Shown here in pieces: positions 70 through 57,642 of a DNA stretch of 64,000 bases. Both the position numbers and the translations under genes were made by a program. The notes below the pieces were generated by a model that had not been told where the DNA came from, did no database searches, and saw nothing but the letters and a program-made list of their open reading frames with translations. Location of the stretch: NCBI GenBank assembly GCA_022414725.1, contig CM039462.1, forward strand, positions 96,084,020-96,148,019, given 5' to 3'. The stretch comes from Microglena sp. YARC (Eukaryota; Chlorophyta; Chlorophyceae; Chlamydomonadales; Chlamydomonadaceae). Numbering within the stretch: position 1 is the first letter of the stretch; each line of letters opens with the position of its first letter.

Positions 70-101
<32 letters not shown>

Positions 102-1895
102 GGGGGGAACCAGCAAAAGGCGCAACTGATAAAACCTAGCCCTTTGTGACCAAGGAGAAAAGACCAAAGAAAAAGACAAGAACGGCTAAGGGACAGCTAA
201 GGGACGGACACCACCTGGGCGACGTAAGGGACAAAGGAGGACGGGAACAGAAGACAAACAAACCAGAGAGGCAAGGAAGAAGCCAAAAACAGGAAGCCCA
301 AGAGAAGGGGCTAGGACTACTAAGAAAAAAGACCTAGGGGCCATAACATTGCAACCTCTAACAGTCACCGGATCAGAAGACTGAAAGAGGAGATGCAAAC
401 TAAGGAGGACTAAAAGGAAAACTATGCAAGAAACTAAGAGAAAAAAGGGGGGAGGGGGGGGGGGGGGGGGGGGACTAAGGAGGCAACTGAGGAGGAAACT
501 AAGGAGGCAACAAAGGGTGGAAACTGAACTAGGGGAAGCAAACTAAGGGAGAAACTGCAAAAGCCCAAAGCAGGGAGGCAACCAGAAAAGAAGAAAGACA
601 ACTGGAAGCAAAGCGAAAACCTAAAAGACTGGTCTGGGCAGGTAAACAACTGGAATGAAGACAGAGACAGTATCAAGATCTAGATCTTGATCTGGATCTT
701 AGGGCAGATCTGGACCTTGATCTTGGTCCAGATCTAGCCCGAGATCTGGAACGTTGTCGAGTGCTGTGTCCAAATCTGGAACCTGATCCTGATCTGGGGC
801 AGGGTCTTTTTTTTTCTTTTTTTTTTTCTTGATCTTGATCTTGATCTTGATCTTGGGCTTGGGCTGGAACTAGGTCAGGGTCAAGATCGGGGCCTAGAGC
901 TGGGGCTTGGGCTGGACCTAGGTCAGGGTCTAGAACAGGGTCTAGAGCTCGGGAATGGGTTGGGTCTGGGTCAGGGTCTAGAGCAAGGTCTAGATCCGGG
1001 TAATGGGCTGGATCTGGGTCAGTGTCTAGATCAGGGTCTAGAACTAGGGCTTGGGCTGGGTCTGGGATTGGGTCTGGGATTGTAGGGAGCGCTGAGGCCA
1101 TGGGGATTGTCATTTCCATGGTGCGGGTATCAGGCTCCCGGTCACCGGGAGTGACCCCAATCATGGTGCAAAAAGGGGGCCCATAAGCTTGCAAAGGAAG
1201 CCACTGTGAGAGAGCAATCTAGGCCACGCCACCAATCTTGACAGATGGCGCCATTATCAAGGTGTCGAAGATCCGTCTGGGTGCGCATCCAGTCCCTGGC
1301 GATGGCTTGGTGAAGGTGGCCAAGGGCAAGGCAAATAGCCTTGTGGTGAAGGGGCTCAGAATGGTCCAGTCTGTCAGCCCGGGACGAACGGACCTGCCAT
1401 ATCGCGCCCAAGGTGGTTATACGCAGGAAGGACCACAACCTTAGGGTTGAGGGAGGAGGGGGTGTCCCGGGCCAAAGGGTGATTTCGTCACTGAGGAGGA
1501 AAAAGGGGCAACGAGGAAGGCGCTGCCCACCGGTGAGGGTCTCCCAAGTGGAAAGGAGCCAGTCTATGACAGGGGCAGAATCAGGGCATTCCAAGAAAGC
1601 GTGAGACATTGTATCAGCAGTGTGCAGCTGCAAGCAGTCAGGGCTGGAGCAGACTATGGAGGGGGGGTCGTCTTGGTTGACCCGTTGGAAGCGTCCTCGT
1701 ACATGAGCAAGGAACGCATTGCAGCCCAGGGTGCCATGAAGCAAGCTCCGGCAAGTGATGGTATAAGGACGGTGGAGAGTCTTGTCAGCGAGGCGTACCC
1801 ACACCTGCGAAAAGCCTGCACGTAGAGGGAGGGAGACTTGAGGTTCGTCTTGTCTTTGAGCTGGGTTCAATATTGGGAACTGGGGCTTTGTTGCA
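70..1895 (-). mobile_element. LINE-A copy 1, 5'-truncated, antisense
   Basis: The 3' end is a T run at 70-96 followed by the LINE-A terminal hairpin and 3' UTR in reverse complement. The long G tract at about 437-474 is the family's C tract read from the other strand. The Asp-Pro tail coding region and the ORF2 C-terminus follow. Matching sequence continues to about 1866. After a gap, a short piece at 1874-1895 matches another part of the ORF2 region (compare 53144-53165), so there is an internal deletion near the truncation point. The copy has its own T-rich expansion at 806-830 and a GATCTT repeat at 831-856. Confidence 0.9.
673..1866 (-). pseudogene. LINE-A ORF2 C-terminal fragment (Cys/His motif plus Asp-Pro tail)
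   Basis: Minus-strand frames encode the region downstream of the reverse transcriptase. A Cys/His cluster of the kind found at LINE C-termini (C-x4-C, then H-x4-C in the HAFLECP segment) is followed by a conserved Trp-rich stretch (TLRLWSFLRI, RDWMRTQTDL). A tail rich in Asp, Pro, Leu and Ala follows. The piece lacks endonuclease and polymerase and is out of frame in places, so it is not a functional gene. The open frame that extends past 1866 to 2095 runs into unrelated flanking DNA and should not be taken as one protein. Confidence 0.75.
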
Positions 1896-6282: not shown

Positions 6283-7806
6283 ATGACACCATGTCTCACG
6301 CTTTCTTGGAATGCCCTGATTCTGCCCCTGTCATAGACTGGCTCCTTTCCACTTGGGAGACCCTCACCGGTGGGTAGCGGCTTCCTCGTTGCCCCTTCTT
6401 CCTCCTCAGTGACGACATCACCCTTTGGCCCGTGACACCCCCTCCTCCCTCTACCCTAAGGTTGTGGTCCTTCCTGCGTATAACCACCTTGGGCGCGATA
6501 TGGCAGGTCCGTTCGTCCCGGGCTGACAGACTGGACCATTTTGAGCCCCTTCACCACAAGGCTATCTGCCTTGCCCTTGGCCACCATCACCAAGCCATCG
6601 CCAGGGACTGGATGCGCACCCAGACGGATCTTCGACACCTTGATAATGGCGCCTTCTGTCAAGATTGGTGGCGTGGCCTAGATTGCTCTCTCACTGTGGC
6701 TTCCTTTGCATGCTTATGGGCCACCCCCCCGATCTTTTGCACCATGATTGGGGTCACTCCCGGTGACCAGGAGCCTGATACCCGCACCATGGAAATGACA
6801 ATCCCCATGGCCCCAGCGCTCCCTACAATCCCATACCCAATCCCAGACCCAGCCCAAGCCCTAGTTCTAGACCCTGATCTAGACCCTGCCCCAGATCCAG
6901 CCCATTACCCGGATCTAGACCTTGCTCTAGACCCTGACCCAGACCCAGCCCATTCCCGAGCTCTAGACCCTGTTCTAGACCCTGACCTAGGTCCAGCCCA
7001 AGCCCCAGCTCTAGGCCCCGATCTTGACCCTGACCTAGTTCCAGCCCAAGCCCAAGATCAAGACCCTGCCCCAGATCAGGATCAGGTTCCAGATTTGGAC
7101 ACAGCACTCGACAACGTTCCAGATCTGGGGCTAGATCTGGACCAAGATCAAGGTCCAGATCTGCGCTAAGATCCAGATCAAGATCTAGATCTTGATATTG
7201 TCTCTGTCTTCATTCCTGTTGTTTACCTGCCCAGACCAGTCTTTTAGGTTTTCGCTTTGCTTCCAGTTGTCTTTCTTCTTTTCTGGTTGCCTCCCTGCTT
7301 TTGGCTTGTTTTTGCAGTTTCTCCCTTAGTTTGCTTCCCCTAGTTCTGTTTCCACCCTTAGTTGCCTCCTTAGTTTCCTCCTCAGTTGCCTCCTTAGTCC
7401 CCCCCCCCCCCCCCCCTCCTCCCCTTTTTTCTCTTAGTTTCTCGCATAGTTTCCTTTTAGTCCTCCTTAGTTTGCATCTCCTCTTTCAGTCTTCTGATCC
7501 GGTGACGGTTAGAGGTTGCAATGTTATGGCCCCCCCTTCATAGGTCTTTTTTCTTAGTAGTCCTAGCCCCTTCTCTTGGGCTTCCTGTTTTTGGCTTCTT
7601 CCTTGCCTCTCTGGTTTGTTTTTCTTCTGTTCCCGTCCTCCTTTGTCCCTTCCGTCGCCTAGGTGGTGTCCGTCCCTTAGCTGTCCCTTAGCCTTTCTTG
7701 ACTTTTTCTTTGGTCTTTTCTCCTTGGTCACAAAGGGCTAGGTTTTATCAGTTGCGCCTTTTCCTGGTTCCCCCCCTTGTAAAAAAAAAAAAAAAAAAAA
7801 AAAAAA
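6283..7806 (+). mobile_element. LINE-A copy 2, 5'-truncated, inside the gypsy remnant
   Basis: It starts within the ORF2 C-terminal region (ATGTCTCACGCTTTCTTGG) and runs through the Asp-Pro tail, the 3' UTR with the C tract at about 7399-7425, the terminal hairpin (left arm 7730-7737) and poly(A) at 7781-7806. Gypsy sequence lies on both sides. The pre-RT linker is on the left and the integrase C-terminus on the right. About 3-4 kb of gypsy pol is therefore missing at the insertion point. No target-site duplication is evident. Confidence 0.93.
6432..7169 (+). pseudogene. LINE-A ORF2 C-terminus, best open copy of the Asp-Pro tail
   Basis: A 245-residue frame starts inside the element and ends at the natural ORF2 stop (TAA at 7167-7169). 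The first ~110 residues are the conserved C-terminal module with RDWMRTQTDLRHLDNG and FCQDWWRGLDCSLTV. The last ~120 residues are almost only Asp, Pro, Leu, Ala, Val and Gln in DPDLDP-type repeats, giving a highly acidic tail. No known domain matches the tail. The start codon is incidental because the copy is 5'-truncated. Confidence 0.75.
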
Positions 7807-8917: not shown

Positions 8918-10345
8918 GGGGTAATGGTGGTGGGCTCCCAGTGGGGAGAGAGGCTGACCATGTGGTCATGGCAGAGCTGGATAAATTCTGGAAGTTTGGG
9001 GAAGTAGGTAGATTGACTGTGGGGACTGCAGATAAGAATGAGGTGTAACTTTTGAGTTGATGGGGAGGTGTGGAGTTTACTGCCCAGCCAGGTGTCAGGT
9101 AGCATAGAGTTCAGAATTTTTGTATGGAGTCAATGTAGTGGACCCATGCATGGATGGTGGATAAGTTTTTGGTAGGGAGCAGAGTAGGTGTCAGGGATGA
9201 GCATGACAGTGCATGTGGGGATCTGACGGGTCTCAGCATTATCTGCCCTGAGTAGGGCCCACCTATCGTAGTGCTTGGTGTGCCAGAGTGACTGAGCTAG
9301 GGATGTCCACCAGGGAGCCCCCAGTCCAGATGGTGTGGAAGGGGTCCTCGTTGGACCCAAAGAACTGGTCAGCAGGGTGGGTAGAGGAATAGGTGTGGAG
9401 ACTCTGGTCATAGATGAGAGGGTTGGAGGCACGGTCGTAAGTGATGCCAAACGCTGTTGTAGCTTGGTGAAGAGCGGGAGAGAGAATGTAAGTGGATGCG
9501 GGGGTAGCTCTGTACCTAGTGAAGAGAGCAGCTAGGTCCGTATAGTAAGTTCCTCCCTGGGTTAGTTGTTGCCATTTGGTAGGGTGGTTAATTTTGAAGT
9601 GTTTATAGTTCTGCTGGAGGGAAGTAAGGTTGCCCAATACATTTTCCAGTGGGGCTTTTGAGGTAGGAAGTGTTTGTGTGGGTGTGGGTGTCCTGACGAT
9701 CCTGGTTGGTGAGGATGCCTGCTTGGAGTTTTTTTTTTTTTTTTTACAAAGGGGGGAACCAAGAAAAGGCGCAACTGATAAAACCTAGCCCTTTGTGACC
9801 AAGGAGAGAAGACCAAAGAAAAAGACATGAACGGCTAAGGGACAGCTAAGGGACAGACACCACCTGGGCGACTAAAGGGACAAAGATGGATGGATGGTGT
9901 AAGCAAGGGGTGGTTGGATGTCCCAGTCTGGGTGTCTTTCTTGTGTGTTCACGTGCAACAGTTTGTGGACAAGGGCGTGGTTGATTGTCAGCTTGGAAGC
10001 CTGGGGTGTTAGTCCATTGACCTTGCTATTGAGAGTTGGTAAGACGAGAGTCCTTTCTAAGGTTTTGGTGTGTGGTTAAAGGAGGACCTGTCTGAAAAGT
10101 GTGAACAAGTTGGTCATAGGCTTGTTGCCCCAGCATTTTGCAGAGGTGAGAAGTGAGGTGTGATTGCGCTTTCCAGTGGATGGTGGAGATAGTGGAGGTG
10201 ACAGGTGTGCTGTGATGGATGCTGTATCCCGCTTGAGTGTAGGAGTTTATGTGATCATTGTGCATGGTTGTGGGAGCCCACTGGACGTGGGCTACGGTGG
10301 TACTGGAGGGGTTGTCAGTGTCTAGTGCGCGTTTATTGCGCCATC
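8918..10345 (-). pseudogene. Decayed PCIF1-like cap adenosine methyltransferase (tentative)
   Basis: Minus-strand frames at about 10345-10026, 9637-9263, 9450-9130 and 9105-8918 read as one protein broken by frameshifts and stops. The order of motifs resembles the PCIF1-type mRNA cap N6-adenosine methyltransferase family. An LFTRYRATP segment is followed by FGITYDRASNPL (family: FG-x-E-x-FASPLN), a YSSTHPADQFFGS segment (family: YCS..PDTD..FGS), GGSLVDIPSS at the place of the GSF-x-x-NPPF catalytic motif, and a VMLIPDTYSAPY strand. The NPPF motif is not preserved, so the protein would be inactive. A short LINE-A copy at 9729-9887 interrupts it. The assignment rests on remembered motif order only. 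Confidence 0.42.
9729..9887 (-). mobile_element. LINE-A copy 3, very short 3' end
   Basis: A T run at 9729-9745 is followed by the reverse complement of the terminal hairpin and ~140 bases of 3' UTR, ending within GACAAAG. It is inserted into the methyltransferase-like pseudogene. No clear target-site duplication is seen. Confidence 0.92.
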
Positions 10346-10578: not shown

Positions 10579-10848
10579 TTTTTTTTTTTTTTACAAAGGG
10601 GGGAACCAGGAAAAGGCCCAACTGATAAAACCTAGCCCTTTGTGACCAAGGAGAAAAGACCAAAGAAAAAGTCAAGAACGGCTAAGGGACAGCTAAGGGA
10701 CGGACACCACCTGGGCGACGTAAGGGACAAAGGAGGACGGGAACAGAAGACAAACAAACCAGAGAGGCAAGGAAGAAGCCAAAAACAGGAAGCCCAAGAG
10801 AAGGGGCTAGGACTACTAAGAAAAAAGACCTATGAAGGGGGGGGGCCT
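10579..10848 (-). mobile_element. LINE-A copy 4, short 3' end
   Basis: A T run at 10579-10592 is followed by the terminal hairpin and 3' UTR in reverse complement. It is truncated in the G-rich GAAGGGGGGGGGCC segment near 10848. The left and right flanks are unrelated to each other. Confidence 0.92.
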
Positions 10849-11968: not shown

Positions 11969-12296
11969 TTTTTTTTTTTTTTTTACAAAGGGGGGAACCA
12001 GGAAAAGGCGCAACTGATAAAACCTAGCCCTTTGTGACCAAGGAGAAAAGACCAAAGAAAAAGACAAGAACGGCTAAGGGACAGCTAAGGGACGGACACC
12101 ACCTGGGCGACGTAAGGGACAAAGGAGGACGGGAACAGAAGAAAAACAAACCAGAGAGGCAAGGAAGAAGCCAAAAACAGGAAGCCCAAGAGAAGGGGCT
12201 AGGACTACTAAGAAAAAATACCTATGAAGGGGGGGGCCATAACATTGCAACCTCTAACAGTCACCGGATCAGAAGACTGAAAGAGGAGATGCAAAC
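11969..12296 (-). mobile_element. LINE-A copy 5, short 3' end in GT-rich DNA
   Basis: A T run at 11969-11984 and ~310 bases of 3' UTR in reverse complement end at GAGATGCAAAC (12296). Both flanks are GT-rich, so the insertion split a GT-rich tract. The truncation point lies within two bases of that of copy 9 at 29180. Confidence 0.92.
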
Positions 12297-14790: not shown

Positions 14791-14890
14791 GTCTTTTTCT
14801 TTGGTCTTTTCTCCTTGGTCACAAAGGGCTAGGTTTTATCAGTTGCGCCTTTTCCTGGTTCCCCCCTTTGTAAAAAAAAAAAAAAAAAAA
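14791..14890 (+). mobile_element. LINE-A copy 6, minimal 3' end with target-site duplication
   Basis: Only ~81 bases of the LINE-A 3' terminus plus ~19 A are present, inserted into the 55-bp array. Because the array sequence is known, the edges are exact. TCCTT lies directly before the insert (14786-14790) and is repeated directly after the A tail (14891-14895), a 5-base target-site duplication. This defines the true 3' end of the family and shows target-primed reverse transcription with extreme 5' truncation. Confidence 0.93.
14821..14871 (+). other. LINE-A terminal hairpin (ACAAAGGG / CCCTTTGT)
   Basis: The last 51 bases before poly(A) can fold into one hairpin. The outer stem is ACAAAGGG (14821-14828) with CCCTTTGT (14864-14871). 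The inner stem is CTAGG with CCTGG (one G-U pair), with a 5-base bulge TTCCC on the 3' side. The same arms are present in most LINE-A copies in the window. A hairpin at this position is the expected recognition site for the element's own reverse transcriptase in stringent-type LINEs. Confidence 0.8.
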
Positions 14891-15423: not shown

Positions 15424-15434
15424 GCCGACTTTTT

Positions 15435-16090
15435 CCAACTTTCTCAACTCCGATCTTTTTCGGCTTTCGCATCTTTCGCGCAGCTTCTTGAGCTTCGCAA
15501 CCACCTTCAATTCGTTGCGGGGCGTGCGGCATGCACTTGGGCGACTTTTCACTCCTCTGGCCAATCTCAACTTCGACAGCCTTTCTCTCCCTCTTCCCTC
15601 TATACGCTTCTGTGTTCTTGTGCTCGTCTTGAAGCTCTCAAGGAGACGCATCTGCCTATACCTTTTCTTTTGTTCGAGGCTCGTTTTTTACGAAAACGCC
15701 AGGTCAACACCTTTCCCTCAGCTTGTTAGCCTCTGGCCATCTTTCAGCACCTTTCAGCACCTCCAACTTTCTCAACTCCGATCTTTTTCAGCTTCCGCAT
15801 CTTTCGCGCAGCTTCTTGAGCTTCGCAACCACCATCAATTCGTTGCGGGGCGTGCGGCATGCACCTGGACGACTTTTCACTCCTCTGGCCGACCTCAACT
15901 TCGACAGCCTTTTTCTCACTCTTCCCTCAATACGTTACAGTGTTCTTGTGCTCGTCTTGAAGCTCTCCTGCCGCTCAGTGTTCGAATTGCCCTTCTTGAT
16001 ACTCTCTGCTCCCCCCTTCAGCCCCGCAATAGCAGCAGTGTCTCAGCCAGCCTGGTCTGACACTCGAGTTTCCCCTCACACTTTCAGCCC
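15435..16090 (+). repeat. Two ~328-bp direct repeats at the LINE-A 5' end
   Basis: The sequence starting CCAACTTTCTCAACTCC at 15435 recurs at 15763, an offset of 328 bases. The two units stay closely similar for ~230 bases, through CTTGTGCTCGTCTTGAAG. The second long copy has the same arrangement at 54486 and 54813. Tandem 5' monomers of this kind act as promoters in some L1 families; here that role is inferred. Short Ser/Phe-rich open frames across the units probably are not translated. Confidence 0.85.
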
Positions 16091-16098
16091 TTCCTTCT

Positions 16099-17222
16099 TT
16101 GCATGGGATTCAATCCTACACCTGGTATACTTCTCCCAGCCCCTTTCAGCTATCATGGCCTCTTATGTTCCTTCTCTCTGACAGCCCCATGCAGCTTCCC
16201 CCCATGGCTCAGCACATGCTAAGAAGATCCCAATGGACCACTGATGTGCGAGACATCCCCCAGACTCTACAGCAAGCCCCATGGATGACCAGCTCCCAAG
16301 TCTCGCACATCCTTCCATGCCCGCACACCTTCTTACTGGAAGTAGGTAAAGCAGCAGTTGAGCCCCAAGAGCTGCCAGCCTTTCTCACCTTCCTCCTCCA
16401 GTACTTCACCCCCCTTCTCCATGGTATGCCGCCAATGGGGCGATGCGGGTCCCATGCAAAAGCTTATTGGTGCATCGTCCTTGCACCCACTGGCCGATAT
16501 TACGCTGACCTTTCCAGGCGGCTATCTCATTCTGGCAACTTCACTGTGGAGTGGGGACAGCGACAGATCCTCATCCCCCTATCCTCTGCTCCTCCCCCCT
16601 CCCCTCTTCACACCGCCGCCTTAAATTCTTCAACGTACCCTCCACATGCGCACGCATTGGCCTTCCTGAGGCCATCCTCTTAGCGGCCGGCTACAAGACA
16701 ATTCCTGCCCACCTTTCCAACTTCCCCCCTTGCTCCCGTCCCGGGGGCAGTCATTATCCTCCGCTACAGTCTTGGCGTGAACGCCAACGCTGCCGTCTTC
16801 ATCGTGGATATCATCCCACCCCCAGCAGACCCCTTCCTCCACCGCCTGCCACCCTTTCTCCCCTCCCTCTCCCTCCCTGATAGACCCCCCTTCAGCACCT
16901 TCTTGGATCAAGATCCTCTCTCTTTCCCCCTCCCCTCCCATTCTGCTCGTTCCCACCTCTTCACCACATCCCCTCTCACATCTTTCCAGGGCCCTTCTGC
17001 TTCTACCCTCCCCTTTACTTCCCCTCCTCCTCCTCCTCCTTCCCCCCTCCCCTTCCCTTCCCCTTCTTCCAACATGGAACCCATCGGGCCCCCGACCTAT
17101 GGTACCCTCCTCATTCTCTCCATTTCCCCTGTCCCTCCCACCGTCCAGTCCACAGCACTCTCACCCCACCCTCCTTCTCAACATGGTCCACCACACCATC
17201 CCCCTCTCCCTACAGCCCCTAC
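16099..17222 (+). pseudogene. LINE-A ORF1, N-terminal region (frameshifted)
   Basis: Overlapping frames are conserved between the two long copies. One contains EVGKAAVEPQELPAFLTFLL and HGMPPMG. The next contains NFTVEWGQRQILIPLS, FFNVPSTCARIGLPEAILLA and AAGYKTIPAHLSNFP. The V-x-x-x-GLPEAI pattern recalls the RRM-like or gag-like start of other LINE ORF1 proteins, but I cannot assign a domain. The frames switch at homopolymers, so the break may be sequencing error. A long Pro/Ser/Leu-rich linker follows from about 16850. The true start codon is uncertain; ATG codons at 16099 and 16155 are candidates. Confidence 0.5.
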
Positions 17223-18926
17223 ATGTTTCCCTCTACTGAGGCACTCCTCCATGCCGGTTCCCTCAGAGCTCGCCCCAGGTTACAATCTTTTTCAAGCCTT
17301 CTCCTGTCAGAGACACACACAGACCCAGTGACTTCAGCAGCCCCCATCGACAGCACCGCCAACACTGAGCCAGGAACTTCACCCGCACCCCCTTCTTCAG
17401 ATGAAGCACAAGTTTCATACTCCACTTCAGATCCACAGGCAGCTCATCCACATCACCCAGGTGCAGAATTAGATCTAGCCGCAGCTACAGCACCAGAAGC
17501 AGCACACTCTCAAGCAACTTCTTCAGCATCAGCTCCTTCTCACGCTTCTGTACCAGCATCTGCCCATCAAGAGCAACAACCACCATTAGATTCACAACTA
17601 ACATCAGTTGCACCTTCCACTCCAAGATCTGTTTCGGCTTCAGCAGTACCAACATCAGCAGCCTCAGCCTCAGCCTCAGCCTCAGCCTCAGCCACAGCCA
17701 CAGCCTCAGCCACAGCCTCAGCGTCAGCATCAGCATCAGTATCAGCTCTAGCATCAGCTCCAGCTCTCTCAGCCTCGGCATCAGCAGCCTCAGCCTTAGC
17801 CTCAGTCTCAGCCTCAGAGTCAGCATCAACATTAGCATCTGTATTAGTTCTAGCATCAGCTCCAGCTCCCTCAGCCTCAGCATCAGCATCAGACCAAGCA
17901 ACACTAGCATTAGCATCAGCATCATCCACAGTGCTATCACCATCAGCACCCTCAGCAACCTCAGCACCAGCATCAGGATCAGCATCAGCATCAGCTCAAC
18001 CTCCCTCAGCAGCATCAACCTCAGCTCCAGCAACAGCATCAGCATCAGTAGCTAAAGGCTCAAAAAAAAAAAAAAAAAGGACTCCATTACAAAACCAATC
18101 TGCACTAGCACAGGCACCTGCAGTAGGAGCCTTGGTTCAGCCACCAACGACAGCAACATCGGTCTCAGCTTTAGCACCCGCTGCATTGGCTACAGTATCA
18201 GCATCACTTGCTTTAACACCTGCACTGGCATACACAGCTTTGCCACCGGTAGAGGAATCGGATCTTCCTACAGCAGCAGATGTTTTGACACCACCAGTAG
18301 CAGACTCAGTGTTGACACCCACAGCAACAGCTTTGGTACCCACACAATCTCCTATAGCATCCTTTCCCCCCTCTCCGCTCCCCTCTAACTCTGCACTAGC
18401 AGAGTCTCCATCTTCCCCTGTCCAAGATTCCTTCCTCTCCATCGCTCCCCCCTTATCCTCATCCCCCTCTCCAGCCCCCTTTAACTCATCTCATCCAGAG
18501 TCTCCCTCTACCCCAGCTCAAGTCCCTCCTATCTCCGCCGCCCTTCCCCTCGCAGACCCATCGCTCCCAACCCCCGACCCATCTCTGATGCAGCAGCTGC
18601 TGCTGGTGCTGCCGCCATCTCAAGGGCAAACCAGACTCCTCCTGCCCATCCCTGTCCCCTTCCTTTTCACCTCCCTCCCTCTCCTGTCCCTCCCTCTTCC
18701 TCCAGCCCACTGGCCACCCGACGTCCCTCCCACACCCCTTCCTTACCTCTCTCCGCCATCACCCACCACCCTCCAGCCACCAGCGATCTGGACTCTCTAT
18801 CAAACACCCAGCATGATCCGCTTTGCTGCCCCATTTGTCTCAACCCCTTTGGGACCGAGCCCCCTTATTGGACACCTTGTGCGCACTCCTTCCACTTCAC
18901 ATGCATCACGACTTGGTTCACTATAG
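17223..18926 (+). CDS. LINE-A ORF1, central Ala/Ser-rich disordered region
   Basis: This is the largest open frame of ORF1, 567 residues. It has a Pro/Ser/Thr-rich entry with acidic residues and His (about residues 1-120). A nearly pure Ala-Ser block with Thr, Val and Leu (about 140-275) is encoded by TCAGCC/GCATCA trinucleotide repeats. A Lys patch KGSKKKKKR (about 280-288, encoded by an A16 run at 18062-18077) could be a nuclear-localisation or nucleic-acid-binding motif. A second Pro/Ser/Ala-rich stretch follows. The last ~90 residues are in the wrong frame. Copy 13 carries one extra CCTC unit near 57728 that puts the frame into the RING finger. The antisense frames over this block are artefacts of the repeat. 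Confidence 0.6.
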   Translation: MFPSTEALLHAGSLRARPRLQSFSSLLLSETHTDPVTSAAPIDSTANTEPGTSPAPPSSDEAQVSYSTSDPQAAHPHHPGAELDLAAATAPEAAHSQATSSASAPSHASVPASAHQEQQPPLDSQLTSVAPSTPRSVSASAVPTSAASASASASASATATASATASASASASVSALASAPALSASASAASALASVSASESASTLASVLVLASAPAPSASASASDQATLALASASSTVLSPSAPSATSAPASGSASASAQPPSAASTSAPATASASVAKGSKKKKKRTPLQNQSALAQAPAVGALVQPPTTATSVSALAPAALATVSASLALTPALAYTALPPVEESDLPTAADVLTPPVADSVLTPTATALVPTQSPIASFPPSPLPSNSALAESPSSPVQDSFLSIAPPLSSSPSPAPFNSSHPESPSTPAQVPPISAALPLADPSLPTPDPSLMQQLLLVLPPSQGQTRLLLPIPVPFLFTSLPLLSLPLPPAHWPPDVPPTPLPYLSPPSPTTLQPPAIWTLYQTPSMIRFAAPFVSTPLGPSPLIGHLVRTPSTSHASRLGSL

Positions 18927-19590
18927 GACACTCCTCGTGTCCCAGCTGCAGGGGCGACTGCAGCCCAGCCCCCCCTTCGATTTGGCATCCAACCTATTAT
19001 TGATAGTGACAGCGATGACAACGAAGAGTTCTCCGAACCCCTTTTATATCCCTCTCATCCCCTCCCCTTCTTCTCTTCCTCCCCCTCCATCCCCACGCGA
19101 GGACTTGGCCCCCCTGCTCCTCCCTACTCCTCCCTCTCCCTCATCTATCCCCTCGCTTTCTTTTTCAGCCTGGGCATCCACTCGGCCCTTGGAGCATACA
19201 CCCCCCAGATCCCACCTCCCCCGTCCCTGCTCCTTCTCCCCTTCTCTTAACTCCTCCTGCCACCCCCTCTTCCACTTCACGTGCTGACAACGCACATTGG
19301 TGGCGCTCAGCCCCTCCCCCTCTACAGGCAACCTCCCCCGCTCAAGCTTCCCCCCCTCACCGTGCCACCTCCTCTCTTCAGGCCGTTCACCCCTTACAGG
19401 CAGTCCCTCTTCAACAGGCTGTCCACTCTCGCAAGAGAACTCGGACAGTCCCAGAAGACCAACAGCCCTGGTGGGCAGTCTCTCTTCCCAGCACCTCTCT
19501 CTCTGAAATGTCCCCTAGGTCAACCCGCAAATCTGCACGCTTAAATATCAGCGGCAACACAAGCCGGGATCACACCAGGGGAGAACACGA
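18785..19590 (+). pseudogene. LINE-A ORF1 C-terminus with RING-H2 finger
   Basis: The frame from 18785 encodes DLDSLSNTQHDPLCCPICLN and a complete RING-H2 pattern: C (18827), C (18836), C (18878), H (18884), H (18893), C (18902), C (18938), C (18947). This gives C-x2-C-x13-C-x1-H-x2-H-x2-C-x11-C-x2-C with a Trp after the sixth ligand, as in E3 ubiquitin ligases. It is followed by an acidic IDSDSDDNEEF patch, reached by removing one C from the C7 run near 18976, then Pro-rich sequence and a basic segment near HSRKRTRTVPEDQQPWW. Similarity to copy 13 continues straight into ORF2, so ORF1 and ORF2 may overlap or be fused. The RING role in retrotransposition is unknown. Confidence 0.72.
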
Positions 19591-22218
19591 ATGAATGCAC
19601 AGCATGCCCCTCCTAGGAGTACCTTTGTCTGCACCAACGCGCAAGGACTTACACCCCTTAAACTCTTTGAGCACATTTCTTGGCTTCGAGAAACGCGAGT
19701 GGATATGGCAGTGCTCACTGAAGTAAGGACAACCTCATCACCCGAGGACCTTCTTCAACACCTCCCAGGCGCGGGGGCAATCTGGCCAGGCGCAAGATTT
19801 TTCTTTTGCCCTGGTACAGGGCACACTGAAGGCATCATCCTGATATTAAGCCCTCACTGCCCCATCACAGATCCCGTCCTAAGACCTATTCTAGGTCCAA
19901 CATGCCGCATTCTAGGCATCGATGCTTTCATTGGTGACTCCGTCATCACCATTTTGTGCGTCTATGCTCCGGCCCAAGCTGCTGACAGAGAAGACTTCTT
20001 TTTCAACTGCGTGCGTCCCAACCTTCCCACTGACGGACGCCTCCTTCTCGTTGTTGGTGATTTCAACTGCATTCTTGACCCCCTCGATGCGGTCTACCCT
20101 CCTCACAGACTCAATATTGACCCCATGAGTCGCATGCAGGGGGCACCTCCCCTTGCAGACATCATGAATACCTACAGCCTACAAGACATCTGGAGGAACA
20201 CGCACCCGACAGCCAAAGACTTCACACATTGGAGCATCCCAGCCTCATCGGGCGGTAGGCTTGACCGCTGGCTGGCTTCAGACTCCCTCCTAGCCCTCTT
20301 CACAGCCACTTCCTCCATTCTTTCTACCTCTGGCTTTATCTCTGACCACCGCCCTGTGTCTATAACCCTCTCCTTCCTAGGCCACGCTCCACCCAAGGGC
20401 CAAGGGCTGCAAGGTTTCCCCCTCCTCCTCCTCAACATTCCAGAAGCTTGTGATGAGCTCAAGAACATCATCGCTTCACAATCCCTCCTCCTAAACCTCT
20501 TACCCGATTCAGACATCGTCACAAAATGGGACAACATGAAGGAAGTTATTCGCACCAGCAGTTGGGCCATTTACAAGAAGCATCGCCGTGCCCGCCAGCG
20601 TGCCGCCCGCTTAGCAGAGGACGACGCCCGGCAGGAATTCTCACAGGTGCATTTCTCCCCCGATGCAATTTCTTTCCTGGCACGCCTCAACATAGCCAAG
20701 GCTAAGGCATTAGCAGCAACACTCGCTTGGCAGCAACTCCTTGCTCCAATGCTCAAAGCTCTACCTATCCTTGAGCACACTTTTGGGGATTCATCTTCCT
20801 TCTACTTCTTCCACCTTTCCCGTTCCCCTCACCCCCCAGTCCACATCAAGCTTATCCAGCCTCCAGGGCCACCCCAGCATCACCCCCTTTCTGTGGCTGA
20901 CCTCTCTTCAATGATAGGAGTCAACATAGGACTGGAGTATGCCCGGGACTTTTATAGTGCTGATTCCTCCTTTGGACTGTATCGTCCAAACCCTCACATC
21001 AACCAGGCTAACCAGGATCTTCTGCTCACATCCCTCCCTCTTTCCCTCCCCCCTAGTTATGCAGCCCTTGCAGAAGGTGTCAATGGCGATGGCCTAATCA
21101 CATCAGAGGAGATGGACCTTGCCATCCGCTCTGCTTCTCGAGGCTCCAGCCCAGGTTATGACGGACTTCCCTTTGAAGTCTACAATGCGTTCCATGAAGA
21201 ACTGTCCCCGATCCTTCAACGGGTTTTCAACTCTGCCTTCCAAGATCAAGTTAACTCGGCCCCCCTAGCACCCCTCCTTCAGGGAACCATCTGCCTTCTC
21301 CACAAGACTGGTCAGCCCCAAGACTCCCTCGCAAGTTACCGTCCTATCACCCTTCTCAATTGCGACCTTAAGCTGATCCTTCTGATCATGGCTCACCGGC
21401 TGCAACGCCCACTGGAATATCTCATCGACGTCACTCAATCAGCTTTCCTCCGTGGCAGAGACATCAGTGACAACATCCGCTATCACCTAGGCTTGGCTGC
21501 GCGCTTGAAAGAGCTTGGCTTACCAGGCTGGTTGCTGCATTCTGACCTCACTAAAGCTTATGATTCTGTCAACAGGGGATGGCTCCTAAAGACAATGTCA
21601 GCCATGGGATTCAATAGTGCGGGCATCACGCGCTGGTGCGATATCCTCATGAATGGCAGCTCTACGCGAGTGCGTCTCAACGGTTTCTTCACTACCTCCT
21701 TCCCCAACACTTCCGGCTTCCCTCAGGGTGGGGCCTTGAGTTGTAATCAATGGGTCATCATCTTTGAGCCCTTCATCACCTACAATAACCAACTGAGATC
21801 TTGTGGAACTCTGCAATCCTTCCGTCTTCCCTCAGGAGAGTTGGCCCCTGCCACCCTCTCGTTTGCTGACGATGGCAAGCACTTAGTCCTCAACCCAACC
21901 ACAGATGGGCCTATCATCAAGGAGACATACGTCGTAGCCAATTCGGCTGGCTTACCCGCCCAGTCTGTTCCCAAGACCCGTCTTCTACTTCTTGAACTTC
22001 CCCCAGACATACCCCTCCCTACAGATCTGGACCCCGCCCTTGGCACCCATCACTTGACTGGTTACCACCTCCATCCCCCAGACACACCTCACAGATTGCT
22101 GGGCGTGCCGTTCGGTGCAAACACTGCCCTTTGCAAGGCTGCAGCCTACCAGCACATGCCCCATAGCATCTCACGTGCAGCAGCTCCATGGCTCTCACGC
22201 ACTCTCAATGTTATTTGA
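19591..22218 (+). CDS. LINE-A ORF2: AP endonuclease and reverse transcriptase
   Basis: This is the best preserved gene in the window, 875 residues. Residues ~10-260 form an AP-type endonuclease with FVCTNAQGL (Asn), AVLTEVR (Glu), CVYAPAQ (Tyr), VVGDFNCILD (Asp and Asn), GRLDRWLAS (Asp) and ISDHRPVS (the terminal Asp-His). The enzyme nicks target DNA to prime reverse transcription. Residues ~480-800 form the reverse transcriptase: LASYRPITLLNCDLKLI, QSAFLRGRDISDNI, HSDLTKAYDSVNRGW (first catalytic Asp), GFPQGGALSCNQW and LSFADDGKHLV with the FADD box. The GFPQGGALS motif differs from the RQGDPLSP form common in L1 elements. The frame ends at a TGA at ~22216 where the other copies read GG, so the stop is probably a mutation or consensus error. 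Confidence 0.93.
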   Translation: MNAQHAPPRSTFVCTNAQGLTPLKLFEHISWLRETRVDMAVLTEVRTTSSPEDLLQHLPGAGAIWPGARFFFCPGTGHTEGIILILSPHCPITDPVLRPILGPTCRILGIDAFIGDSVITILCVYAPAQAADREDFFFNCVRPNLPTDGRLLLVVGDFNCILDPLDAVYPPHRLNIDPMSRMQGAPPLADIMNTYSLQDIWRNTHPTAKDFTHWSIPASSGGRLDRWLASDSLLALFTATSSILSTSGFISDHRPVSITLSFLGHAPPKGQGLQGFPLLLLNIPEACDELKNIIASQSLLLNLLPDSDIVTKWDNMKEVIRTSSWAIYKKHRRARQRAARLAEDDARQEFSQVHFSPDAISFLARLNIAKAKALAATLAWQQLLAPMLKALPILEHTFGDSSSFYFFHLSRSPHPPVHIKLIQPPGPPQHHPLSVADLSSMIGVNIGLEYARDFYSADSSFGLYRPNPHINQANQDLLLTSLPLSLPPSYAALAEGVNGDGLITSEEMDLAIRSASRGSSPGYDGLPFEVYNAFHEELSPILQRVFNSAFQDQVNSAPLAPLLQGTICLLHKTGQPQDSLASYRPITLLNCDLKLILLIMAHRLQRPLEYLIDVTQSAFLRGRDISDNIRYHLGLAARLKELGLPGWLLHSDLTKAYDSVNRGWLLKTMSAMGFNSAGITRWCDILMNGSSTRVRLNGFFTTSFPNTSGFPQGGALSCNQWVIIFEPFITYNNQLRSCGTLQSFRLPSGELAPATLSFADDGKHLVLNPTTDGPIIKETYVVANSAGLPAQSVPKTRLLLLELPPDIPLPTDLDPALGTHHLTGYHLHPPDTPHRLLGVPFGANTALCKAAAYQHMPHSISRAAAPWLSRTLNVI

Positions 22219-24250
22219 AGGGCGCATGTTGCTATGCAATGCTTGGCTTCCAAGTTCATCTTCCAGGCTAACTTTGCATCACCACCAGCGCCTCTCCGCC
22301 AGCAGTTGCAATCTTCTCTCAATGCCTTTGTTGCAACCTCTAGCCTGCAGGAGGAGGAATCACCACGTCCAGGACACCTCTTCCCCCGCTTCGGGACAGC
22401 TGTCCTTCCTTTTCATCGAGGAGGGCTTGCTGTACCCCATCTTGCTTCCCACTCGGCAGCTATGCTGGCCAAGACCACATGGCTCCTCTTCAGTTACACA
22501 GGTCACCCCTGGCAGCAGCTCTACCGTTACGAGATTTCTCGGGCTGTGCGCCTTCCTCCAGGTCAGCCAAGTGGTACCATGCCCTGGTTACCGCCCCGTC
22601 TTCTGTGGACATCGCCTCAATCACCACCAACTTGGCCCGGGAAAGTGCAGAGGCTTTTCTCCTGCTGAACATTCGTAGAATTATCGCTCCGCCCATGCAG
22701 TGCCCCCAATCCATCCTACTAGAAACCACCTTCAACAACACCCCTCCTTTTCCGTCCATGCCCATCACCTCAAACCAAGTGCTCTCCTCCCAAGCACTCT
22801 CGTAGCACCGTCTCAAGGACATCCGCTCAGCTCATCAACAACGAGCTCACCTCCCTCCCGCTGCTGTCCAAGACCTTGACTTCATCCTCTCCCCTCTGCC
22901 AGACCCCTGGCGGGATGCTGTCCTCCTTCCTGAACTTCCACCTCCCAAATGGAAGCTCTTTCCCGCTGTGGCCCCTGCTGGTCCCCTTGCAGAGGGGCCA
23001 GATCCCCTCACTGGAGAGGACCGTCTTTGGGAGGTCTGGCCCTCTGGCCGGTTACACCCTCTCACCCTTCCTGCCCTTCCCCCCCAAGGACACCCCCAAG
23101 CTGCGCTCATCACCCTACGCAAGAAACCTCTAGTAGCATGGTTACGGGCAGACTTTGAGGAGCAGCTGATCCAGCAAGGCCTCCACCCCCACCAGAGGCA
23201 AGAGCTCTTGGAACCATGGCTGGTTGGTCTTTGGGAGGACCTCCAACTGGACCCAACAACATGGGGTCTCCACCTCCATGATGATACTGAGGTGAACCTT
23301 CTTGAACTCTCTGTGCGCCAAGCACGGCAGGCCCTTCTTCACCAACATATCATGCAACAAAGCCCCAGTTCCCACCATTTTGTGCCAGGTTATACCGAGG
23401 AACGTGCTGCTTGACCCAGGCTGTGGAGCATTCTACCCCCCTCCACCTTGGACACTCACCCTAGCACTAACCCTGACCTGCGAGGCCTCCGTGGTCTTGA
23501 ATCCCGATGGATTGCCTCAGCAACAGAGAGAGCGCTCGTTGTCACCCCTATTCCAGTCCCCTCCCCTGAAGACCTCCCACTGAACGCTTGGGTGGACTTA
23601 CAACGTGTCCGCCCCTCCCGTCCAGGCCCAGCAGAGAGAACTGCTCAAAGATAAGACGAACCTCAAGTCTCCCTCCCTCTACGTGCAGGCTTTTCGCAGG
23701 TGTGAGTACGCCTCGCTGACAAGACTCTCCACCGTCCTTATACCATCACTTGACAGTCTTCATGGCACCCTGGGCTGCAATGCGTTCCTTGCTCATGTAC
23801 GAGGACGCTTCCAACGGGTCAACCAAGACGACCCCCCCTCCATAGTCTGCTCCAGCCCTGACTGCTTGCAGCTGCACACTGCTGACACATTGTCTCACGC
23901 TTTCTTGGAATGCCCTGATTCTGCCCCTGTCATAGACTGGCACCTTTCCACTTGGGAGACCCTCACCGGTGGGCAGCGCCTTCCTCGTTGCCCCTTCTTC
24001 CTCCTCGGTGACGACATCACCCTTTGGCCCGGACACCCCCTCCTCCCTCTACCCTAAGGTTGTGGTCCTTCCTGCGTATAACCACCTTGGCGCAATATGG
24101 CAGGTCCGTTCGTCCCGGGCTGACAGACTGGACCATTCTGAGCCCCTTCACCACAAGGCTATCTGCCTTGCCCCTTCACCAAGCCATCGCCAGGGACTGG
24201 ATGCGCACCCAGACGGATCTTCGAAACCTTGATAATGGCGCCTTCGGTCG
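22219..24250 (+). pseudogene. LINE-A ORF2, region after the reverse transcriptase (frameshifted)
   Basis: Coding continues in pieces through all three frames. They include NAFVATSSLQEEESPRPGHL, QALLHQHIMQQSPSSHHF, ESRWIASATERALVV and HGTLGCNAFLAHVRGRF. They end with the Cys/His motif (CSSPDCLQLHTADT, then HAFLECP) of the type found in LINE C-termini and probably nucleic-acid binding. Comparison with copies 8, 12 and 13 shows that the frame changes sit at single-base differences. No RNase H catalytic pattern was found. The region is cut at 24250 by the nested antisense copy. Confidence 0.72.
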
Positions 24251-26947
24251 TTTTTTTTTTTTTTTTTACAAAGGGGGGAAAGGAAAAGGCGCAACTGATA
24301 AAACCTAGCCCTTTGTGACCAAGGAGAAAAGACCAAAGAAAAAGACAAGAAAGGCTGGGACAGCTAAGGGACGGACACCACCTGGGCGACGTGGGTCAAA
24401 GGAGGACGGGAACAGAAGAGAGAGGCAAGGAAGAAGCCAAAAACAGGAAGCCAAGAGAAGGGGCTAGGACTACTAAGAAAATAGACCTATGAAGGGGGCC
24501 ATAACATTGCAACCTCTAACCGTCACCGATCAGAAGACTGAAAGAGGAGATGCAAACTAAGGAGGATTAAAAGGAAAACTATGCAAGAAACTAAGAGAAA
24601 AAAGGGGGGGAGGGGGCGGGGGGGGGGGGGGGGGACTAAGGAGGGCAACTAAGGGGGAAACTAAGAAAGGCAACTAAGGGTGGAAACTGAACTAGGGGAA
24701 GCAAACTAAGGGAGAAACTGCAAAAACAAGCCAAAAGCAGGGAGGCAACCAGAAAAGAAGAAGACAACTGGAACAAAGCGAAAACCTAAAGACTGGTCTG
24801 GGCATGTACAAAAGGAATGAAGACAGAGACAGTATCAAGATCTAGTCTTGATCTGGATCTTAGCGTCTGGAATCTTGGTCCAGATCTAGCTAGATCTGGA
24901 ACGTTGGTGTGCTGATCTGGAACCTGATCCTGATCTGGGGCAGGGTCTTGATCTTGGGCTTGGGCTCGATCTAGGGTTCAGGGTCAAGATCGGGGCTAGA
25001 GCTGGACTAAGTCAGGGTCTAGATCAGGGTCTAGAGCAATGGGCGGGGTCTGGGTCAGGTCTAGAGCAAGGTCTAGATCCGGGTAATGGGCTCAAGGCCT
25101 AGGGCTTGGGCTGGGTCTGGGTTGGTCTGGGATTGTAGGGAGCGCTGGGGCCATAGGGATTGTCATTTCCATGGTGCGGGTATCAGGCTCCTGGTCACCG
25201 GGAGTGACCCCAATCATGGTGGGCAAAGATCGGGTGGCCCATAAGCTTGCAAAGGAAGCCACTGTGAGAGAGCAATCTAGGCCACGCGACAGAAGCGCCA
25301 TGGTGTCGAAGATCCGTGGGTGCGCATCCAGATGCTTGGTGAAGGTGGCCAAGGGCAAGGCAGATAGCCTTGTGGTGAAGGGGCTGTGGTCAGAGCCCGG
25401 AACGGCGCCCAGGTAGGAGGCATAAGAAAGCGTGAGAACAATTGTGTCGCTGCAAGCAATCAGGGCTGGTATGGAGGGGGTCGTACCCGTTGGACCCATG
25501 AAGCAGCTTGTCTGCACGTAGAGGGGAGGGAGACTCGGTCAGCAGTTTGTAAGTCCTTTTTGTGGAGGTCTTCAGGGGAGGGCTGGAATAGGGGTGAAAC
25601 AAGAGCGGAAGGCAATCATCGGGATTCAAGACCACGGAGGCCTGCAGGTCAGGCGCACAGGTAAAGAGAGTTCTGTGGTGTTTGTGTGGTCCAGTTGGAG
25701 GTCCTCCCAAAGACCGCAGCCATGGTTCCAGAGCTCTTGCCTCTGGTGGGGGTGGCGGCCCTTGCTGGAGCTCCTCAAGAGGTTTCTAGAAGGGTGAGAG
25801 GGTGTAACCGGCCAGAGGGGACCAGACCTGTGAGGCTGAAGGGGACAGCAGGGGGCCACAGCCATGTGGTTCAGGAAGGAGGACAGCATGCCAGGGGTCT
25901 GGCAGAGAGGGAGGATGAAGTCGAGGGTCTTGGACAGCATAGCTGCTGAGCGGATGCCTTGAGACGTGCCACGAGAGTGCTTGGGAGGAGAGACTTGGTT
26001 TGAGATGGGGCAATCAAGAGAAAAGCCTCTGCACTCCTCGAAGTCGATGTCCCATTAGAGGTAACTCGGCTGGCTGCTGCCAGGGGTGACCTGGTGTAAC
26101 TGAAAGAGGAGCCATGTGGTCTTGGCCGCATAGCTTCCGAGTGGGGAGCAGATGTACAGGCGCTGGGGAAGAGGTGTCCTTGACGTGGTGATTCCTCCTC
26201 CTGCAGGCTAGAGGTTGCAACAAAGGCATTGAGAGAAGATTGCAACTGCTGGCGGAGAGGCGCTGGTGGTGATGCAAAGTTAGCCTGGAAGATGAACTTG
26301 GAAGCCAAGCATTGGCATAGCAAACATGCGCCCTTCAATAACATTGGAGAGTGCGTGAGAGCCATGGAGCTGCTGCACGTGAGATGCTATGGGGCATGTG
26401 CTGGTAGGCTGCAGCCTTGCAAAGGGCAGTGTCTGCACCGAACGGCACGCCCAGCAATCTGTGAGGTGTGTCTGGGGATGGAGGTGGTAACCAGTCAAGT
26501 GATGGGTGCCAAGGGCGGGGTCCAGATCTGCAGGGAGGGGTATGTCTGGGGGAAGTTCAAGAAGCAGAAGACGGGTCTTGGGAACAGACTGGGCGGGTAA
26601 GCCAGCCGAATTGGCTACGACGTATGTCTCCTTGATGATAGGCCCATCTGTGGCTGGGTTGAGGACTAAGTGCTTGCCATCGTCAGCAAACGAGAGGGTG
26701 GCTGGGGCCAACTCTCCTGAGGGAAGACGGAAGGATTGCAGAGTTCCACAAGATCTCAGTTGGTTATTGTAGGTGATGAAGGGCTCAAAGATGATGACCC
26801 ATTGATTACAACTCAAGGCCCCACCCTGAGGGAAGCCGGAAGTGTTGGGGAAGGAGGTAGTGAAGAAACCGTTGAGACGCACTCGCGTAGAGCTGCCATT
26901 CATGAGGATATCGCACCAGCGCGTGATGCCCGCACTATTGAATCCCA
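24251..26947 (-). mobile_element. LINE-A copy 8, nested inside copy 7
   Basis: A T run at 24251-24267, the terminal hairpin, 3' UTR, Asp-Pro tail and ORF2 follow in reverse complement. The copy is truncated within the reverse transcriptase at CACTATTGAATCCCA (about 26947). The host copy continues on both sides with at most one base lost and no visible target-site duplication. Compared with other copies, this one lacks many short blocks, from about 5 to over 100 bases, while the remaining sequence is nearly identical. That pattern is unlike ordinary decay. Confidence 0.93.
26280..26903 (-). pseudogene. Reverse-transcriptase C-terminal half of nested LINE-A copy 8
   Basis: A 207-residue frame begins MNGSSTRVRLNGFFTTSF, i.e. 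after the first catalytic Asp motif. It contains GFPQGGALSCNQW and the FADD box (LSFADDGKHLV) and runs through the thumb region. It is nearly identical to the same segment of copy 7. The endonuclease and the RT palm start are missing. Confidence 0.85.
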
Positions 26948-27681
26948 GATTGGTGGCGTGGCCTAGATTGCTCTCTCACAGTGGCTTCCTTTGCAAGCTT
27001 ATGGGCCACCCCCCCGATCTTTTGCACCATGATTGGGGTCACTCCCGGTGACCAGGAGCCTGATACCCGCACCATGGAAATGACAATCCCCATGGCCCCA
27101 GCGCTCCCTACAATCCCAGACCCAATCCCAGACCCAGCCCAAGCCCTAGTTCTAGACCCTGATCTAGACCCTGACCCAGATCCAGCCCATTACCCGGATC
27201 TAGACCTTGCTCTATCCCTTACCCAGACCCAGCCCATTCCCGAGCTCTAGACCCTGTTCTAGACCCTGACCTAGGTCCAGCCAAGCCCCAGCTCTAGCCC
27301 CGATCTTGGGACCCTGACCTAGTTCCAGCCCAAGCCCCAAGATCAAGACCCTGCCCCAGATCAGGATCAGGTTCCAGATTTGGACACAGCACTCGACAAC
27401 GTTCCAGATCTGGGGCTAGATCTGGACCAAGATCAAGGTCCAGATCTGCGCTAAGATCCAGATCAAGATATAGATCTTGATACTGTCTCTGTCTTCATTC
27501 CTGTTGTTTACCTGCCAGACCAGTCTTTTAGGTTTTCGCTTTGCTTCCAGTTGTCTTTTCTTCTTTTCTGGTTGCCTCCCTGCTTTTGGCTTGTTTTTGC
27601 AGTTTTCTCCCTTAGTTTGCTTCCCCTAGTTCAGTTTCCACCCTTAGTTGCCTCCTTAGTTTCCCCCTTAGTTGCCTCCTT

Positions 27682-27715
<34 letters not shown>

Positions 27716-28099
27716 TTTTTTTTCTTAGTTTCTTGCATAGTTTTCCTTTTAGTCCTCCTTAGTTTGCATCTCCTCTTTCAGTCTTCTGATCCGGTGACTG
27801 TTAGAGGTTGCAATGTTTTGGCCCCCCGCTTCATAGGTATTTTTTCTTAGTAGTCCTAGCCCCTTCTCTTGGGCTTCCTGTTTTTGACTTCTTCCTTGCC
27901 TCTCTGGTTTGTTGTCTTCTGTTACCCGTCCTCCTTTGTCCCTTCCGGTCGCCCAGGTGGTGTCCGTCCCTTAGCTGTCCCTTAGCCTTTTCTTGACTTT
28001 TTTTTTGGTCTTTTCTCCTTGGTCACAAAGGGCTAGGTTTTATCAGTTGCGCCTTTTCCTGGTTCCCCCTTCTGTAAAAAAAAGAAAAAAAAAAAAAAA
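26948..28099 (+). mobile_element. LINE-A copy 7, 3' part resumed after the nested copy
   Basis: It starts AGATTGGTGGCGTGGCC and contains the rest of the ORF2 C-terminus, the Asp-Pro tail (27110-27450, with several frameshifts) and the 3' UTR. The stop corresponds to the TAA near 27451. The C tract is 27685-27713, the hairpin lies at about 28025-28075 and the A-rich tail at 28076-28099. It is the 3' end of the element beginning at 15424. Confidence 0.92.
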
Positions 28100-28846: not shown

Positions 28847-29180
28847 TTTTTTTTTTTTTTTTACAAAGGGGGAACCATGAAAAGGCGCAACTGATCAAAC
28901 CTAGCCCTTTTTGACCAAGGAGAAGACCAAAGAAAAAGTCAAGAACGGCTAAGGGGACAGCTAAGGACGGACACCACCCTGGGCGACGTAAGGGACAAAG
29001 GAGGACGGGAACCAGAAGGCAAACAAAACAGAGAGGCAAGGAAGAAGCCAAAACAGGAAGCCCAAGAGAAGGGGCTAGGACTACTAATAAAAAAGACCTA
29101 ATGAAGGGGGGGGGGGCCAATAACATTGTGCAACCTCTAACAGTCACCGGATTCAGAAGACTGAAAGAGGAGATGCAAAA
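28847..29180 (-). mobile_element. LINE-A copy 9, short 3' end
   Basis: A T run at 28847-28862 and ~318 bases of 3' UTR in reverse complement end at GAGATGCAAA (about 29180). Several single-base differences suggest it is older than copies 3-6. Confidence 0.92.
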
Positions 29181-50185: not shown

Positions 50186-50279
50186 GAAAACAAAGATCTC
50201 ATCAAATGATATTCAACTTACCCTATGACTTGCCGCAAATAAGCTCAATATGTCTTCTATAGCTTCTCCGCTCATCTTG

Positions 50280-57640: not shown

Positions 57641-57642
57641 TG

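Follow-up and report, generated by a model that had tools for sequence, protein, structure and literature searches.

The stretch of DNA analysed here (64,000 nucleotides, hereafter the window) contains 14 copies of one and the same 3' end, of which 11 belong to a retrotransposon that we call LINE-A and three to a second family, B, and poly(A) follows all 14. The 11 LINE-A tail copies have a single common 3' end and differing 5' limits; the ten besides copy 1 are 5'-short, two of their 5' limits having been set by eye. The LINE-A features of the window are:

70..1861, minus strand: LINE-A 3' copy; hairpin 97-147
6284..7806, plus strand: LINE-A 3' copy; hairpin 7730-7780 (pair 5 broken)
9729..9881, minus strand: LINE-A 3' copy, short; hairpin 9746-9796; 5' limit by eye
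10579..10845, minus strand: LINE-A 3' copy; hairpin 10593-10643
11969..12296, minus strand: LINE-A 3' copy; hairpin 11985-12035
14791..14890, plus strand: LINE-A tail-only copy, ~81 nt plus poly(A); hairpin 14821-14871; within a 55-bp satellite; 5-6-nt duplication (A)TCCTT
15424..24249, plus strand: LINE-A copy 1, upstream part, from self-comparison with 54475-64000; 15424 is the start of the similarity, not a proven 5' end
19591..22218, plus strand: LINE-A ORF2, 875 aa; APE-type endonuclease (PF03372) and reverse transcriptase (PF00078), by Pfam
24251..26947, minus strand: LINE-A copy nested in copy 1, 5'-truncated in the RT region; hairpin 24268-24316
26947..28099, plus strand: LINE-A copy 1, 3' part; hairpin 28025-28075 (pair 4 broken) and poly(A); continues 24249 as the uninterrupted copy 43831-45485 does
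28847..29179, minus strand: LINE-A 3' copy; hairpin 28863-28912 (pair 2 broken); shares its 3' flank with copies elsewhere in the cluster (two places)
43831..45485, plus strand: LINE-A 3' copy; hairpin 45414-45463
48280..49518, plus strand: LINE-A 3' copy; hairpin 49447-49497
54475..64000, plus strand: second long LINE-A copy, extending beyond the window end

ORF2 and the hairpin tail are assigned to one element because copy 1 resumes past the nested minus-strand LINE-A insertion. Among solved structures in the PDB, the best match of ORF2 is LINE-1 ORF2p (106 bits), with R2 at 25 bits. A protein search gave 21 relatives among 7997 candidates scored, four of them carrying an organism name. The nine strongest are at 31-51% identity and the strongest named one, a Haematococcus lacustris protein, at 34%; it is this relative that points to a green alga as the probable host. 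In viral_contigs ORF2 had no relative. With an APE domain, an RT closest to LINE-1, a poly(A) 3' end and 5'-truncated copies, LINE-A is probably a member of the L1 clade, an assignment based on Pfam and the best structure match. In ten copies (nine LINE-A, one B) the flank matches sought as target-site duplications are not clearly above random, the best being equalled by 12/300 random flanks. The one target duplication with a known empty site, 5-6 nt long, is that of the tail-only copy in the 55-bp satellite.

Several further repeats lie in or beside these copies. A 48-bp repeat of 3.7-4.7 copies occurs in the LINE-A 3' part (855-1066, 6842-7068, 27127-27353, 44523-44746, 48610-48783) and reads as Asp-Pro-rich or Arg-Ser-rich frames. 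LINE-A copy 2 contains a 19/37-bp tandem repeat (57908-58659), none being listed in copy 1, and its ORF2 holds a run of 20 T (60534-60553) with almost nothing else inserted, which resembles a nearly bare poly(A) copied in. The 55-bp satellite itself extends over 14318-14790 and has matching arrays on contigs C1, C2 and C3. Degenerate sequence at 29200-32540 resembles, by eye, a copia-type polyprotein, and a protein search with the ORF at 45526-46077 returned no match.

The LINE-A tail (14821-14871) reads ACAAAGGG-CTAGG-(20 nt)-CCTGG-TTCCC-CCCTTTGT, and the family B tail (42940-42991, 52026-52076, 53726-53776) reads ACATAGGG-CTAGG-(20-21 nt)-CCTGG-TTCCT-CCCTATGT, each followed by poly(A). A first-pass annotation of the window had proposed a 3'-terminal hairpin common to the two families, and the hairpin sequence is indeed found in 14/14 tails before the poly(A), three of them with one broken outer pair. 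It had listed the B hairpins at 42940-42991 and 52026-52076, to which the third copy at 53726-53776 is now added. The fourth pair of the outer stem, as had been noticed, is A-T in LINE-A and T-A in B, so that pairing is kept, and the remaining seven outer pairs are identical between the families. The 8-bp outer stem is intact in 8/11 LINE-A copies and 3/3 B copies of the window, the exceptions being the LINE-A hairpins 7730-7780 (pair 5), 28025-28075 (pair 4) and 28863-28912 (pair 2), with one broken pair each. The inner stem and bulge had been called the same in both. The letters CTAGG/CCTGG do occur in both, but the bulge is TTCCC in A and TTCCT in B, and CTAGG/CCTGG is the minimum-energy inner stem only in A, the fold of B preferring another.

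A profile built from the 14 tails re-finds all 14 (E <=2.8e-28, by construction), and the next match in the window, at E 4.1, is at chance level. The exact tail pattern was also matched at five loci in viral_contigs and 23 in genome_contigs; we take these 28 to be chance matches because the second half of the hairpin appears in 0/28 of the printed 3' contexts. There are 18 poly(A) runs of at least 12 in the window, 14 of them directly after an A/B hairpin. The other four comprise two after the tail of a third family, C, one in the coding part of the presumed ORF1 and one in an ORF2 copy. The family C type of tail ends in TGTGTCGGGAGACCCACCTCCTnGGGTGAAAnTCCTTTCACAACT-poly(A) and is found at 14198 (minus strand), 43809 (plus strand) and ~C1:96006926 (position 22907, minus strand, of a 264-kb region that we also analysed). 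By eye it has a small hairpin of its own, GTGAAA/TTTCAC, unlike the A/B tail.

The tails of LINE-A and B are homologous over ~84 nt, with mean pairwise identities of 0.953 among A copies (55 pairs), 0.980 among B copies (3 pairs) and 0.836 between A and B (33 pairs). About 34 nt of this lies upstream of the hairpin, in agreement with the earlier remark that the upstream ~30 bases are related. An extension of the homology over the last 330-350 nt was rejected, as the full upstream stretch was matched by 104/300 and 111/300 shuffles; for the first 80 (versus 110) nt upstream alone the score was reached by 7/500 shuffles, and we do not count this as homology. A homologous 3' tail on otherwise unrelated bodies is one mark of stringent-type LINE/SINE pairs with a common tail, and LINE-A and B carry one. 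The A and B tails differ by ~16%, far more than copies do within either family, and the B tail was therefore not taken recently from the present-day LINE-A; an older capture or a sister LINE would be needed.

The bodies to which the B tails are attached are of a different kind, and their features in the window are:

33558..42127, plus strand: 420-bp tandem array upstream of B copy 1, beginning at a 1000-N gap
42128..43018, plus strand: family B copy 1, body and tail; hairpin 42940-42991
50417..52096, plus strand: family B copy 2, rearranged; includes part of a 420-bp unit (50611-50743); hairpin 52026-52076
53447..53799, plus strand: family B copy 3, 5'-truncated; hairpin 53726-53776

Copy 3 sits in a minus-strand LINE-A fragment, of which ~52 nt of target is missing. 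In the 264-kb region the B copies have one 3' end and many start points, with homology extending from ~160 to 1220 nt, plus the array. The 420-bp tandem array heads the two longest B copies, the second of which lies outside the window (array upstream of the B copy at ~C1:96170383-96174351). The first-pass statement that B has no ORF holds up: the longest frame in body or array is 185 codons stop to stop, none is open across either, and no LINE-A-like RT is found within B; the one array ORF compared with Pfam gave no match. A tRNA scan of the window with the bacterial code found none, and an Rfam scan of the window gave no family at the gathering score, the only matches at 49500-54200 being two weak and unrelated ones (E up to 5). 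A SINE is a short element with a pol III promoter in the form of a tRNA, 5S or 7SL part, and B, with its longest copies >1.2 kb plus the array, does not have this make-up. The label "SINE-like" fits B poorly because B is long, is without a detected tRNA or Rfam part and carries the 420-bp array.

For either consensus tail the predicted fold has a robust outer stem of 8 bp (pair probabilities 0.72-1.0). The inner pairing is ambiguous in these predictions. In B, AGG/CCU together with AUCAG/CUGGU is favoured over CTAGG/CCTGG by 0.6 kcal/mol; in A, CTAGG/CCTGG is favoured by ~0.6 kcal/mol and the AUCAG/CUGGU part is present at ~25%. Compared with shuffles, the folding energy has z values of -1.2 to -2.2 for five hairpins alone and of -0.35 and -1.0 for two taken with 33-34 nt of upstream sequence, so the predicted energy by itself is unremarkable, slightly better than shuffles. 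When seven random substitutions were placed on the 51-nt A hairpin, one compensated pair with none broken arose in 1.4% (8-bp stem) and 0.7% (13-bp stem) of trials, and for this reason the single A/B swap at pair 4, taken alone, is suggestive and not conclusive.

Covariation was therefore followed over more copies, beginning with a local set of 61 parsed hairpins from the 264-kb region and seven further loci (of 71 tail matches, 10 did not resolve into full hairpins and were left out). All eight outer pairs are kept in 48/61, and matched changes occur at pair 4 only, which is A-T in 44/45 A and T-A in 13/16 B copies. An outer pair is broken in the other 13/61, one of them a parsing error (the B copy at 23545, misparsed at its 3' end). 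A divergent LINE-A tail outside the window has G at position 3 opposite T, a wobble. Within each family the local copies are too alike to say more on covariation. Mobile subfamilies with a broken pair were considered and rejected: three AAAAAGGG copies share one 3' flank, and two B copies with T-T both lie within one duplicated segment, so each such group looks like one insertion (the clustering of flanks is approximate and merges a few unrelated ones). Segmental duplications within the cluster copy whole insertions with their flanks, as seen for 28847-29179 and two places in the 264-kb region, and there are therefore fewer insertions than the copy counts suggest.

Because the genome offers hundreds of copies, each stem pair is open to a test by counting: the exact B-type 5' arm GGTCACATAGGGCTAGG occurs 887 times in the 568-Mb assembly (2390 contigs), and its reversed control 0 times. 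In 11 copies 5' position 4 is G or C, and the partner is changed in one, giving a complementary C-G. Position 3 is changed in 28 copies, with a changed partner in three, always complementary: one is G-C and two are T-A, and in one of the latter pair 4 is mismatched as T-T. Two of the 28 (C1:69983378 and C1:80055117) have A at position 4 together with CCCTATGT, an A-A mismatch, and in the variant C2:29273355 the loop has bases of both the A and the B type. Among the 39 variant copies at pairs 3 and 4, four partners are thus changed, all to the complementary base, where the substitution rate in the loops of these 39 copies would give 0.21 if stem and loop mutate alike (Poisson P 7e-5, in a post hoc test that covers 5'-arm changes at these two pairs, treats copies as independent and requires a pattern match over the remaining stem). 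The partner is unchanged in 35/39; by our count 12 of these are G-T wobbles and 23 mismatches, a result that dead copies would give but that a lack of constraint would give too. A hairpin with compensatory changes is another mark of LINE/SINE common tails, and such changes are found here at pairs 3 and 4. Further compensated pairs thus occur genome-wide (pair 3 in three copies, pair 4 in one), while in the 61 local hairpins pair 4 stands alone.

LINE-A and B have a homologous 3' end of 84 nt in common, and its RNA is predicted to form a single hairpin beside the poly(A). We consider it fairly probable that the LINE-A reverse transcriptase starts copying at this hairpin and that B, without an open coding frame in the copies seen, is copied as its parasite. 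LINE-A RNA would be translated into the endonuclease/reverse transcriptase whose domains are seen in ORF2, and this enzyme would bind the 8-bp stem ACAWAGGG/CCCTWTGT together with the poly(A). It would then nick the target and prime cDNA from the 3' end, as suggested by copies with a common 3' end but different 5' ends. The RNA of B would be accepted because of the same stem-loop, and selection on pairing would lead to stem changes matched on both sides, with matching seen so far at pairs 3 and 4. Recognition of the hairpin by the enzyme, and LINE-A rather than an unseen sister as the driver of B, are steps that we infer. The earlier reading of B as a LINE-A parasite, after the manner of SINE/LINE common-tail pairs, is supported in part, by the homologous tails on unrelated bodies, the APE/RT LINE, the frame-less partner with LINE-like 5' truncation and the further compensated pairs genome-wide, and pairs of like design have been published from green plants (PMC3747384).

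We think it unlikely that B is driven by an unsampled sister LINE with a T-A tail, in which case B would be a parasite of this sister, or its non-coding end, instead of a parasite of LINE-A. The gap between the families is in keeping with such a sister, the A and B tails being ~16% apart against mean identities of 95% (A) and 98% (B) within families, and the mixed loop bases of C2:29273355 hint at further lineages. The B bodies could also be a long 3' UTR whose coding part is missing from all copies seen, and in the window's longest B copy the array starts at a gap in the assembly; however, the two longest B copies are headed by the 420-bp array and not by coding sequence. No LINE-A-type RT segment is joined to any of the 15 B tails of the 264-kb region, in a search with four LINE-A-type proteins that would miss an RT unlike these. 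Ten of these tails have no same-strand RT upstream within 12 kb, and for the other five the RT segment is 4.9-9.8 kb away, always with a same-strand LINE-A tail in between (the A/B labels were assigned roughly, and one or more partial matches, such as that at 24084, look mislabelled).

We regard it as quite improbable that the RT works by poly(A) alone, in the relaxed manner of mammalian L1, with the hairpin as inherited baggage or as an element of RNA stability, export or 3' processing. Poly(A) ends all 14 copies, and priming on it is equally possible; yet poly(A) insertions with an unrelated 3' end are rare in the window (2/18 runs, with one other tail common to both, and a further, nearly bare run within an ORF2 copy), homologous tails are kept on two unrelated bodies, and further stem pairs are compensated. 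A role in RNA stability would also select for pairing, so compensation does not exclude it, and neither the target-site duplications nor the hairpin energy lend support to a special mechanism. The TGT of the tail and the following A also make TGTAA, the green-algal polyadenylation signal. In quasi-palindrome mutation, strand switching at a hairpin corrects an imperfect inverted repeat, and matched changes could arise in this way in the DNA without selection on the RNA, but such an origin is very improbable here: the four extra compensated stems are each seen once among the listed copies with no amplified subfamily, as a copy-level mutational process would give, whereas the two families, both amplified, are nearly fixed for A-T and T-A respectively and 35/39 variant copies keep an unchanged partner.

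Recruitment of B by LINE-A through the shared hairpin, the reading that we prefer, has several counterparts. SVA elements are moved by a LINE and depend on L1 and poly(A), whereas B has a structured tail in common with the LINE presumed to drive it. In UnaL2 the 3' end is made of TGTAA repeats, and the Rfam scan of the LINE-A/B window detected no family at the gathering score. UnaL2 and other stringent-type LINEs, which are mentioned in PMC3747384, resemble LINE-A and B in having a 3' stem-loop common to SINEs. The SVA/LAVA VNTR composite retrotransposons of hominoids, described in PMC4432496, are like B in being large and having a tandem-repeat domain. In maize, LINE1-1_ZM shares with ZmSINE2/ZmSINE3, and with sorghum SINEs, a ~50-nt common 3' end with a hairpin and compensatory stem changes, according to PMC3747384. 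LINE1-1_ZM is further like LINE-A in belonging to the L1 clade and in the stringent-type recognition proposed for it there. The monocot SINEs are listed in the same paper as tRNA-derived, and the ZmSINE2 rows consulted end in poly(T), whereas in B no tRNA was found and the end is poly(A); the bases conserved in maize (a 5'-CGAG-3' flank and a UCU loop) also differ from those of LINE-A/B (PMC3747384).

The closest parallel is found in Chlamydomonas reinhardtii, where L1-1_CR and SINEX-3_CR share ~80 nt of 3' end, both with poly(A) (PMC3747384), and where L1-1_CR, which is ZeppL-1_cRei, is described as confined to putative centromeres (PMC8226300). Like LINE-A and B, they comprise an L1-clade LINE that is clustered and a non-autonomous element, with a ~80-nt common 3' end and poly(A), a likeness drawn from the published description. 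SINEX-3_CR is, however, listed as tRNA-promoted in that source (PMC3747384), whereas B is long, frame-less and array-bearing, with no tRNA in the bacterial-code scan. Nested L1-type LINEs in discrete clusters, as in LINE-A, are reported for Zepp of Coccomyxa and Chlorella and for ZeppL of Chlamydomonas (PMC3446292 and PMC11005252), with one nested cluster of Zepp per chromosome in Coccomyxa (PMC3446292). Whether green-plant L1-type enzymes read the hairpin or the poly(A) is a question already raised in print (PMC3747384).

The genomic placement of the tails bears on this parallel. Of the 887 B-type tail places we mapped the first 100, in the first 96 Mb of contig C1, and 96 of them fall in nine clusters (at least two each) that cover 1.48 Mb; gaps of <50 kb between neighbours number 81/99, against 5.0 expected. 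Within the 264-kb region LINE-A and B form one nested cluster, with each family inserted in older copies of the other. In Coccomyxa there is one cluster per chromosome according to PMC3446292, whereas the nine B-tail clusters here lie on half of a single contig (195 Mb) of uncertain scaffolding. Taken with the Chlamydomonas and Coccomyxa reports, which we combine here, the nine clusters make LINE-A/B resemble a pair of the ZeppL type whose partner is unusual in bearing an array, and our guess, by analogy with ZeppL elements, is that the clusters may be centromeres. LINE/SINE tail pairing itself is already known; what is new here is the large array-bearing partner and its clustering. Searches of open-licence papers gave no report of a ZeppL element with such a partner, a negative result of little weight.

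Pair 4 occurs in nature in two versions, which are ready-made re-pairing mutants for an assay of the enzyme, and LINE-A and B together suggest that a tail of this kind may be usable by a long array-bearing element and not only by tRNA-type SINEs. A further-reaching and rather doubtful possibility is that LINE-A is a centromere-building Zepp-like L1 and B a large, frame-less parasite headed by the satellite-like 420-bp array and recruited by hairpin shape. The two would then construct the centromere jointly, and the tandem satellite would arrive with the parasite. If true, a retrotransposon could in this way be the source from which satellite DNA is seeded at centromeres.
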